From Croceitalea dokdonensis DOKDO 023 (GTDB lineage: Bacteria > Bacteroidota > Bacteroidia > Flavobacteriales > Flavobacteriaceae), in NCBI RefSeq assembly GCF_001306415.1, contig NZ_LDJX01000002.1, forward strand, positions 1 to 64,000: DNA of 64,000 nucleotides, in the 5' to 3' direction. Below the pieces are notes generated by a model, which saw nothing but the letters and a program-made list of their open reading frames with translations, had not been told where the DNA came from and searched no databases. The position numbers and the translations under genes were made by a program. Shown here in pieces: positions 53,835-57,316 of the stretch. Position 1 is the stretch's first letter, and every line of letters starts with the position of its first letter.

Positions 53835-56800
53835 TTAATCATCCACCAAATTGGGCGCCAACCATTTCCTTGCCATTTCCAAGTCCATTCCTTTTCTATG
53901 GGCATAATCTTTTAACTGGTCTTCTTTAATTTTACCCAACCCAAAATATTTGGCTTCAGGATGTGCAAAATAATAGCCGCTGACACTGGCCGCCGGCCAC
54001 ATAGCCAAACTTTCCGTTAGCTCTACCCCAATATTTTCCTTTACTCGCAACAGTTCCCAAATGGTCAGTTTTTCTAAATGGTCCGGGCAGGCAGGATAAC
54101 CTGGCGCAGGACGGATTCCCCTATATTTCTCATCTATTAAAGCTACATTGTCCAAATCCTCATCAGAAGCGTATCCCCAGTTTTTGGTTCTGACCTCCTT
54201 GTGTAGGTATTCTGCAAAAGCTTCGGCCAACCTGTCTGCCAAGGCTTTTACCATTATGGCATTATAATCATCGTGCTTCCTCTCAAATTCATTTGCCAGT
54301 TCCTTGGTCCCAAATCCGGCCGATACGCAAAAACACCCGATATAGTCTTGAATACTACTTTCTTTTGGGGCGATGAAATCTGCCAATGCGATATTGGGCA
54401 CACCTTCCCGTTTTTTGAGCTGTTGACGGAGAGTGCGAAAAACAGCCGCCTCTAAATCTCCCCCCAAGGGGGAGACTTCAATATCATCATCATTTACCTG
54501 ATTTGCCGGGAACAACCCAAAAACGGCCTTGCCCATTAACAATTTTTCACTCAAAACTTTTTTCAGTAAGGCCTGGGCATCATCAAATAATTCTGTGGCT
54601 TGTGCACCAACGATAGCATCCTTTAGGATTTCAGGATATCTGCCATGCAAATCCCAAGAACGGAAAAAAGGGGTCCAATCTATATAATCGGTTAGCTGGG
54701 ATAGGTCAAAATCGTTCCATATTTGTACGCCAAGTTCCTTGGGTTTTTTGATATCCTCTTCTTTAAAATCAATACTGTGCTTATTCGCTCTTGCCTGCGA
54801 CAAGGTCAGGTATTCTTTTTGTTTGGTTCGGTTCAGGAACTTCTCACGAAAGCTGTCATAATCTAATTTAATGTTCTCTTTATAGGTATCCGAGGTTTCT
54901 TTTTGTAACAAATCCCCAACCACGGTCACCGCTCTTGAGGCATCGTTCACATGCACTACGGCCTGACTATAGGCCGGGGCTATCTTTACGGCCGTATGCG
55001 CCTTGCTGGTGGTCGCACCCCCAATCAGCAGGGGAACTTTAAAGTCTTGGCGTTCCATCTCCTTGGCCAAAAAGACCATTTCGTCAAGGGAGGGCGTAAT
55101 CAATCCGCTCAAGCCAATGATATCCACTTTTTCTTCAATGGCCTTATTGATGATCTTTTCTGGGGGCACCATCACGCCCAAATCCACAATCTCATAATTG
55201 TTACATGCTAAAACGACGGAAACAATATTCTTTCCAATATCATGGACATCTCCCTTTACCGTGGCCATTAGAATTTTACCGGCAGAAGCCCCCCCCGCCC
55301 CCAAAGGGGGAGCTTGAAGCTCTTTGAGGATTACATCAAAAACTCCTTCAAGATTGCCCAAAACTTCATCATTCGTGAATCTAATTACCCGATACCCTTG
55401 TTGCTCAAGCCATTGTGTTCGCTCAGCATCGCTTTTTTTATTATCAGGTAGTTGGTGAATGCTTCCATCCACCTCAATGATCAAATTTTTCTTCAGGCAT
55501 ATAAAATCAGCAATAAACTCACCGATGATATGCTGACGACGAAATTTATATCCATCCAAATTTTTGACGCTAAGGGCACTCCAAAGTAGTTGTTCAGCCT
55601 TTGTGGGTTGGCTTCGCATCTTTCTCGCGTGCTCTTTCAATAATCCGTATAACACCGGATTTGCAGTCTCCCAGTATTGCTCCCCTTTTGGGGGCTGGGG
55701 GGCTTTTTTCGCTTCCTCAATGAAGGGCTCCAAGTAGGCGACAGCCTTTTTCATCACGCGGGCAGATTTCACTACTTGCGGCAAAAACATTTTTCCACTC
55801 CCGAACAAATCTCCCACCACGTTCATTCCGATCATGAGGTTGCCCTCAATCACTTCAATGGGTTGCTTTGCCGCCAATCTCGCCTCCTCAACGTCTTGGA
55901 TAATGTACTGGTCTATCCCTTTGACCAAGGCCCTGGTTATTCTGTTTTGTAAAGGTTCCACTCGCCAAGAGAGGTCAATGGTGCTTTCCCTGGCCTTGCC
56001 CTGAAAGGTCTCGGCAAATTCCAGCAGCCGTTCCGTAGCATCATCCCTTCGGTTTAAAATCACGTCTTCCACATGTTCCAGGAGATCTTTGGGAATGTCA
56101 TCATAGACCTCCAACAATGTTGGATTCACAATACCCATGTTCATGCCAACTTTAATGGCATGGTATAGAAAAACGGAATGCATGGCCTCACGAACCGGGT
56201 TATTGCCCCTAAAGGAAAAAGACACATTGCTTACGCCCCCACTTACACTGCAATACGGCAGGTTCTCACGCACCCATTTGGTGCCCTCAATAAAATCCAG
56301 CGCATTGCGCTTGTGCTCGTCCATTCCCGTTGCCACCGGGAAAATATTAAGGTCAAAAATGATGTCCTCTGGGGGGAATTTTACGATATCCACCAATATA
56401 CGGTAAGACCGGGTTGCAATTTCCTTTCTACGCTCTAGGTTATCTGCCTGCCCCACCTCATCAAAGGCCATCACAATCATGGCTGCCCCATAGCGCTTAA
56501 TGAGTTTGGCCTGACGGATAAATTCTGCCTCCCCTTCTTTTAGGCTAATGGAATTTACCACACATTTGCCCTGAACCACCTGTAGGCCCGCCTCTATGAT
56601 TTCCCATTTTGAGGAATCTATCATAATGGGTACCCTAGAAATATCGGGCTCTGCCACAATCAAATTCAAGAACTTGACCATGGCTTCCTTACCGTCTATC
56701 AACCCATCGTCCATATTGATGTCGATGATTTGGGCGCCATTCTCCACCTGTTCCCGCGCTACGGACAAAGCCTCCTCAAACCTTTCTTCCTTAATCAAAC

Positions 56801-56960
56801 GAAGGAATTTTTTGGAACCCGCCACATTGGTGCGCTCACCAACATTGACGAAATTGCTCTCCGGAGTGATGACCAATGGTTCTAGTCCACTTAACTTTAA
56901 GTATCTAAATGTTTGTTGTCGGTTGTTGTTTGCCGGTATATGTGAATTGCCTTGAGTCAT
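53835..56960 (-). CDS. metH: Methionine synthase MetH (pterin/B12/activation domains) with inserted DUF559 domain
   Basis: Cobalamin-dependent methionine synthase without the homocysteine domain, which is the separate gene at 57341. Order: pterin-binding domain (~20-290; [20 protein letters not shown]), B12 cap (~310-420), an in-frame foreign block (~421-562), B12-binding domain ([12 protein letters not shown], cobalt-ligand His574), and SAM-dependent activation domain ([20 protein letters not shown]). The foreign block encodes a DUF559 endonuclease-like domain ([32 protein letters not shown]) in the linker before the B12 domain. The ATG at 56960 overlaps the TGA of the S23 gene. 1041 residues. 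Confidence 0.93.
54457..54475. repeat. Short palindrome inside metH, related to the insertion ends
   Basis: TCTCCCCCCAAGGGGGAGA, a near-perfect palindrome, is read in frame as part of [12 protein letters not shown]. It shares its core with the terminal repeats of the DUF559 block and is absent from the family consensus as I know it, so it is probably a minimal copy or remnant of the same element. Confidence 0.6.
55287..55704 (-). mobile_element. In-frame DUF559-encoding element in metH
   Basis: A ~418-base block bounded by imperfect terminal inverted repeats of about 26 bases (55287-55313 and 55679-55704), each beginning AGCCCCCC and ending GGGGAGC when read inward. It has no start or stop codon of its own, keeps the metH frame and adds about 140 codons. 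It encodes a DUF559 (Vsr/PD-(D/E)XK-like) domain with Asp in IADF and Glu-Val-Asp in IIEVDG retained. No intein splice-site residues (N-terminal Cys/Ser, C-terminal His-Asn) are at its borders. No transposase is present. Confidence 0.8.
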
Positions 56961-57316
56961 CAATTATTCTTTTTGTAATATTTGATGAATCCGTTAATGA
57001 GTTTTTTACATTTTAATATCTGTTTGAATTGCTTATCAAAATCTTCCTTTTTCAGGTATCCTTGATCTAAAGCAATGAACAATTGGGTTTCCAATTCATA
57101 CAAAGACCCACGAGAAATATGCAAAAACCGGATGGTATCGGCAGAGGTTCTTCTACCACAGCCTTCGGCAATATTAGATGGAATAGAAACAGCACATCTA
57201 CATATCTGACTCGTCAATCCATACATTTCTTCCTTTGGGAAAGCTTTTGATATCTGATAAACATCATTTACCAAAACTCTAGCCTCTTTCCAAACCTCCA
57301 ACTCAGTATATTCCAT
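56960..57316 (-). CDS. S23-type four-helix bundle protein
   Basis: A 118-residue protein of the 23S rRNA intervening-sequence (S23/IVP) family, starting [20 protein letters not shown], with [20 protein letters not shown] and [12 protein letters not shown]. Such proteins pack as pentamers of four-helix bundles; their function is unknown and their genes are mobile, often inside rRNA genes. Here it sits between the two halves of methionine synthase, joined to the second half by TGATG (one-base overlap). Confidence 0.92.

Follow-up and report, generated by a model that had tools for sequence, protein, structure and literature searches.

A block within methionine synthase

The window analysed here is the whole stretch of 64,000 nucleotides from Croceitalea dokdonensis DOKDO 023, and within it a minus-strand open reading frame codes for the second portion of methionine synthase, which is split here (Table 1). 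When the whole protein was scanned, the NCBIfam metH models TIGR02082 and PRK09490 matched on both sides of a block that itself matches DUF559, and the frame stays open through all 1042 amino acids. The block lies in the linker directly before the KGDVHDIGK motif of the B12-binding domain. Its ends are GC-rich inverted repeats of 24 nt that are 92% complementary (arms 55290..55313 and 55679..55702), it lacks both a start and a stop codon, and the nuclease motif DF..E[VIL]DG..H is intact.

Table 1. Features of the metH locus, with positions in the window.
Feature	Position	Strand	Description
metH, second ORF	53835..56963	-	Open frame, 1042 aa; pterin-binding, B12-binding and activation domains; hosts the insert
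Element	55287..55704	-	Block AG...CT, in frame, ends inverted; lacks its own start and stop codons
DUF559 nuclease domain (PF04480)	55314..55637	-	Own-genome match; Pfam DUF559 E 2.4e-37
5' terminal repeat (coding strand)	55679..55704	-	C-tract, spacer, short hairpin; translated PQPPKGE
3' terminal repeat (coding strand)	55287..55313	-	Hairpin CCCCC-TTT-GGGGG and outer G-tract; translated PPLGAGG
Single-end copy, second metH site	54444..54475	-	Scar or solo insertion, window genome

This arrangement had been described in a sequence-only reading of the window, which took the block for an in-frame DUF559 insert with terminal inverted repeats and intact nuclease residues, and held it to be neither a standard insertion sequence nor an intein. 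That reading was right in substance. Inverted repeats are present but no transposase was found within the block, where DUF559 was the sole domain found with Pfam and NCBIfam. The NCBIfam scan of the 1042-aa MetH gave no intein model up to E 0.01, and the ends of the block encode PPKGE and PPLGAGG. A target-site duplication is not definable, as filled and empty alleles have different flanking sequences.

The terminal repeats, whose recurrence the earlier reading expected, do occur elsewhere in the window genome: the 23-nt end has three further copies with at most three mismatches, against 0 in the control. These solo ends lie at C10:369909, C13:188295 and C1:68619, with 1, 2 and 3 mismatches, respectively, and the first two are located between ORFs. 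No further DUF559 was found in this genome, and the idea that the block is multi-copy within it was ruled out, since there is a single DUF559.

Occurrence in metH of related bacteria

The sequence-only reading would not have stood if MetH carried the domain throughout the relatives, and it does not: among the matches listed, DUF559 is found in metH of 7 family genomes, out of 227 that have a metH match. The site is empty in all 30 homologues that were fetched, one of them (G176) from the same genus as the window genome; these were the best matches to a query of the joined flanks, a choice that favours empty sites. In one genus represented by 11 genomes, two have a filled metH, each with an empty sister (host distances of 1.9% and 3.4%) and with empty outgroups. 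On the metH tree the filled state is clustered, with 9 changes compared with a shuffled mean of 17.2 (L238 skipped), and much of the distribution may therefore be vertical. One further genome (G287) was considered as a filled or cargo-less metH and ruled out, the linker expansion there being unrelated.

A similar block occupies the same metH site in G215, a single-contig genome that is alone in its genus, which hence yields no pairs. The presence of similar blocks at one site in independent genomes, including this single contig, speaks against an assembly or annotation artefact, as does the identity of metH in L140 and G300 (distance 0.000), though these may be the same isolate. The probability of an artefact is negligible.

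In-frame DUF559 domains in other host genes

At E 1e-10, DUF559 was found in 108 of 299 family genomes, with the best matches within long open frames; in a scan of public genomes with a single peptide pattern, 80 of 538 relatives were retained. The suggestion in the earlier reading that other host genes might carry the block was well founded, as DUF559 stands in frame in about 15 host gene families. The hosts include metH (two sites), recG, leuS, ileS (two sites), valS, metG, cinA and hsdM, and further in-frame cases are a WbcJ-like reductase and a methylmalonyl-CoA mutase fusion; the domain lies at protein ends in hisF, rnhA, hemD, hisD and ispG. Host names were first given by eye, and one representative per host subsequently matched the family expected. 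Host matches below the curated cut-off include the WbcJ-like, hsdM and RNase H cases in NCBIfam, and for the second ileS site the host could be confirmed no further than as a class I tRNA synthetase. As a separate observation, DUF559 stands in frame ahead of hemD (uroporphyrinogen-III synthase) in nine family genomes (L126-L134; Pfam-confirmed for L126).

Judged by eye, several inserts lie beside WFDSGSMP in ileS, before LVMTATPIPRT in recG and before KGDVHDIGK in metH, which we take to be strongly conserved host motifs. In a tree of the inserts, which is a quick tree from few columns with 18 of 160 inner branches starred, the sequences cluster by host site, with 28 label changes compared with a mean of 98 after shuffling (3 of the 167 domain rows were left out, two being short and one a duplicate). 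The recG (22 rows) and cinA (5 rows) inserts form one group each, and those in the metH linker (7 changes) and leuS (6 changes) form several groups each. The same tree shows two or three derivations of the second metH site from the first. The two insert copies of G215 are sisters and are saturated at silent sites (dS 1.9), so that the jump in this genome was not recent.

The nuclease domain

A profile of 63 DUF559 domains matches PDB 3hrl (E 2.4e-33) and 3r3p, 'Mobile intron protein' (E 1.5e-7), the latter presumably being I-Bth0305I, a proven homing enzyme. The Vsr model TIGR00632 matches the block at E 0.0087 with 16.3 bits, which is below its curated cut-off of 97.85 and hence below the Vsr threshold. 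The motif that is intact in the window block is also intact in all 21 metH-linker copies, all 22 recG copies, all 8 ileS copies and 18 of 19 leuS copies, and is altered in 2 of 9 hemD copies. Values of dN/dS for the insert are between 0.03 and 0.19 in 13 of 17 pairs (those where the ratio is defined), with host values mostly lower still. Three leuS copies (L135, L136 and L137) hold a decayed DUF559 in which the catalytic residues are lost and the frame is kept.

Hairpin ends and derivative forms

Among the 90 in-frame copies with enough flank, a pyrimidine-arm hairpin with a perfect stem of at least 5 was found at the 5' end in 76, at the 3' end in 72 and at both ends in 62, compared with 8 of 519 host windows in the control. 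The test did not cover the hemD, hisD, ispG and mutase copies, nor those close to a contig end or the decayed L135 and L137. The stems have 37 different sequences; pairing was a condition of the count, and the point is therefore that hairpins recur with changing sequence. The 5' end of the window block misses the threshold of the test because its stem is only 4 bp.

Derivatives of the full element are found in metH itself. The gene of G241 (L240) keeps both ends with the nuclease gone, and that of L155 has a full element in the linker and a cargo-less element at the second site. This second site, at which the window genome has its single-end copy, holds full DUF559 elements in L003, L150 and L152.

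Purifying selection on the insert, together with the grouping of recG inserts from many genomes, is what would be expected of a domesticated DUF559 domain, retained because it confers a useful trait on MetH and the other host enzymes. Most relatives are without the block, however, the hosts are many and unrelated, and decayed and cargo-less forms survive in the same enzymes, so that domestication is very improbable. The grouping of the recG inserts also fits partly vertical descent.

Palindrome-like inserts of other, differing types occur in frame at the second metH site in L007, L141, L061 and L073, two of these four being CGTC-like by eye; the position is a hot spot for palindromes inserted in frame.

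Footprints beside the inserts

Comparison of closely related alleles gives some indication of how the insert was gained. The empty metH of L054 and the filled metH of L140 (Flavobacterium sp. ASW18X, Flavobacteriaceae) differ at 39 of 2210 nt away from the insert. In the left flank they differ at 17 of 110 nt, all within 82 nt of the insert (binomial 1e-11), and in the right flank at 10 of 30 nt, all within 18 nt of it (binomial 6e-11). An empty outgroup (L249) agrees with the empty allele at 16 of the 25 tract differences, with the filled allele at 6 and with neither at 3; the corresponding numbers outside the tract are 13, 19 and 2. Since the flanks have an excess of differences and the empty outgroup mostly matches the empty allele, the filled lineage most likely gained its insert along with foreign flanks. 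In the same genus there is a second gain (G302) beside an empty sister at 3.4% host distance, and for the pair L245/L253 the outgroup sides with the empty rather than the filled allele by 10 to 2 near the insert, and by 29 to 31 outside it.

A pattern of the opposite sign is found in ileS of two Psychroflexus species (L199/L204), where 12 of 420 nt differ over the insert and about 18% over the rest of the gene. The adjoining 40 codons on the left differ at 7 of 120 nt, and low divergence extends for about 18 codons on the right. A weaker form of footprint is seen in recG of Tenacibaculum. The footprint pairs number only three, two of them clear and one weak. From their sequences, the allele patterns in metH and ileS look like homing footprints, against which it must be set that fast-evolving linkers can add mismatches beside an insert.

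No donor of the L140 insert was found among the sampled alleles, because its left flank is not closer to the sampled filled alleles than to the empty ones (the best being L058, which is empty) and because the inserts of L140, L253 and the window are 25-29% different from each other. The notion that the L140 flank resembles filled alleles was dropped after this comparison, and our confidence in homing is set slightly lower on account of the missing donor. Over 616 same-site pairs, synonymous change is 0.478 in the insert and 0.500 in the host, with the insert lower in 354; the insert is hardly younger than the host, and most copies are therefore not recent transfers. These pairs do not support the view that inserts are in general younger than their hosts, which was kept for the two outlier pairs only.

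These data also bear on the view that the block is a passive passenger, spread solely when related bacteria exchange segments of host genes by ordinary homologous recombination, with the nuclease taking no part. Any recombination would produce exchange tracts such as those in metH and ileS, and an age of most inserts close to that of their hosts is in keeping with it. Against this, in both genes the tracts are of short length and lie directly beside the insert, the motif and dN/dS stay constrained, and many sites are beside motifs that we take by eye to be conserved, as is the case for inteins. A passenger without active nuclease is on balance unlikely.

Separately, a four-helix-bundle gene (TIGR02436) lies between the two metH halves of the window at 56960-57316. 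By eye, a similar gene lies between the metH halves of L140 and is absent from the 98%-identical L054, and it therefore also looks like a mobile insert.

A proposed mechanism

The block is probably a mobile element of the homing-endonuclease type, residing in the host protein as a domain that is in frame and not spliced out, and bearing REP-like ends. Its patchy occurrence, the clustering of inserts by site, the flank footprints in two genes, the constraint on the nuclease, and the cargo-less and single-end derivatives all point towards homing. Given the open frame, the block would presumably be translated as part of MetH. The DUF559 domain, which is Vsr-like and related to an intron-homing enzyme, is proposed to cut block-less metH near the linker; repair from a filled copy would then copy in the block and a short stretch of flanking host DNA. 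The GC-rich hairpin ends probably serve rare moves to new sites, and their translated Pro/Gly linkers may let the host enzyme fold around the insert. The sequence-only reading had proposed spread by insertion wherever the host protein tolerates it. Its view of the block as mobile is retained, and free insertion is not, as inserts cluster by site and the alleles suggest transfer with short flanks.

A different role for the ends is envisaged if the element is transposed through its hairpins by an enzyme acting in trans, such as the REP-associated tyrosine transposase (Y1_Tnp), with DUF559 as cargo. Inverted hairpin ends, solo and cargo-less forms, the origin of the second metH site from the first on two or three occasions, and dispersed solo hairpins in genomes with DUF559 are all compatible with this, and Y1_Tnp was found in 28 of the 38 carrier genomes searched. 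At E 1e-5, however, it was found neither in the window's own genome nor in nine more of the 38, and transposition does not predict the flank footprints in metH and ileS. As a general account it is quite improbable, and the candidacy of the transposase (RAYT) as a necessary mover finds no support in the window's own genome. Transposition of this kind may underlie rare moves to new sites.

Relation to known systems

The proposed homing element shares features with several known systems. The EDxHD or Vsr-like homing endonucleases have a homologous nuclease domain (3r3p), and like them the block has apparently spread into cognate sites with flanks; it differs in lacking a surrounding intron or intein, in staying in the host frame and in its hairpin ends. 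Inteins with homing endonucleases are similarly in frame, without start or stop, and often beside conserved motifs of essential enzymes (judged here by eye), whereas no splice domain was found in the block and the insert seems to be retained. The palindromic elements of Rickettsia are in-frame, hairpin-forming inserts in protein genes, and the cargo-less metH forms look alike; the block has a nuclease gene between its ends, and to our knowledge the Rickettsia elements carry no enzyme gene.

REP and REPIN sequences with RAYT, and CGTC-tagged REPs (PMC3733652), resemble the block in having an enzyme gene flanked by REP-like hairpins, solo copies and, in some cases, CGTC-type flanks; the enzyme here is DUF559 and not a tyrosine transposase. 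Some Rickettsia elements have been placed in the CGTC-tagged REP class (PMC3733652). VsrA of Caulobacter is a DUF559 protein for which there is genetic evidence that it provokes an SOS response in cells that have no cytosine methylase (PMC12907096); it shares the DUF559 domain with the block, and is there proposed to be a mismatch-repair enzyme and not part of a mobile element. In the open-licence literature, judged from titles and the starts of abstracts, no earlier description of an in-frame DUF559 element was found.

If homing is the correct reading, a selfish nuclease can persist in essential genes without a splicing device, as a tolerated extra domain that homes between species, which would be a life-style additional to those of intron-borne, intein-borne and freestanding homing enzymes. 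REP-like palindromes without a known mover would also gain a specific enzyme to be tested for that role. Furthermore, the Pro/Gly-bordered DUF559 domains of tRNA synthetases, RecG and MetH would have an explanation, and there would be reason for caution before such domains are interpreted as functional fusions.

Freestanding DUF559 genes and REP-like repeats

The likeness to Rickettsia palindromic elements that the sequence-only reading had drawn goes further than it supposed, as many freestanding DUF559 genes are flanked by REP-like hairpins. Pyrimidine-arm hairpins lie within 300 bp on both sides of 23 of the 38 FREESTANDING DUF559 genes of the family, on one side of 10 and on neither side of 5 (the 38 are freestanding genes, L084 and L115 having been dropped); the same search around 58 window genes found hairpins at 0 of 58 on either side. 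Generic hairpins, which were searched for first, lay on both sides of 28 of 40 genes, compared with 1 of 800 Markov shuffles (the coordinates of L084 were faulty in that search).

Hairpin density in non-coding DNA gives a similar picture. Near a DUF559 gene there were 76 hairpins in 13057 bp for the family, 15 in 2391 bp for genome contigs and 4 in 580 bp for plasmid records, and far from DUF559 the counts were 9 (12936 bp) and 1 (2651 bp). Control non-coding DNA, made up of 4502 bp from the window and 6312 bp from control loci in the family, had none. Around 14 plasmid-borne DUF559 genes, chosen from 38 records and belonging to Alphaproteobacteria, Deinococcus and a cyanobacterium, 27 hairpins lie in 8.4 kb of near DNA and 12 in 67.2 kb of far DNA, and both sides have hairpins in 6 of the 14.

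One hairpin type was followed across the family and occurs in 34 of the 299 genomes. DUF559 is present in 28 of these 34 and in 80 of the 265 others (Fisher 6e-9, uncorrected for kinship), and among the matches listed 20 of 78 copies of the hairpin are within 900 bp of a DUF559 match. At 9 of 59 freestanding DUF559 genes the flanks carry CGTC-type units, which were defined more loosely (stem of at least 6, loop of 3-8, CCA) than the canonical CGTC-tagged REP with its CGTC tag, stem of 8-9 bp, loop of 4-5 nt and CCA tail. The 64-kb window and 216 kb of far DNA had no such unit, and the CGTC tag is absent from the ends of the window block itself.

By association, these sequence comparisons make DUF559 a candidate mover of REP-like palindromes. 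A broader proposal, which we put forward tentatively, concerns a large class of bacterial REP-like palindromes (pyrimidine-arm, RIME-like and CGTC-tagged) from several phyla, for which DUF559 nucleases would be the mobility enzymes that have been missing. On this view the autonomous element would consist of a DUF559 gene together with the hairpins around it, and solo palindromes would derive from it; the in-frame inserts in essential enzymes would be a coding-sequence form that homes without splicing, and in-frame palindromes of the Rickettsia type would be relics of this system.

Individual loci outside the family show other arrangements. Two Sinorhizobium DUF559 genes (L223 and L224) adjoin double palindromes, which we take to resemble rhizobial mosaic elements (RIME). 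On a Sphingomonas plasmid (L222), sufB and sufC are separated by a DUF559 gene that is flanked by hairpins on either side.
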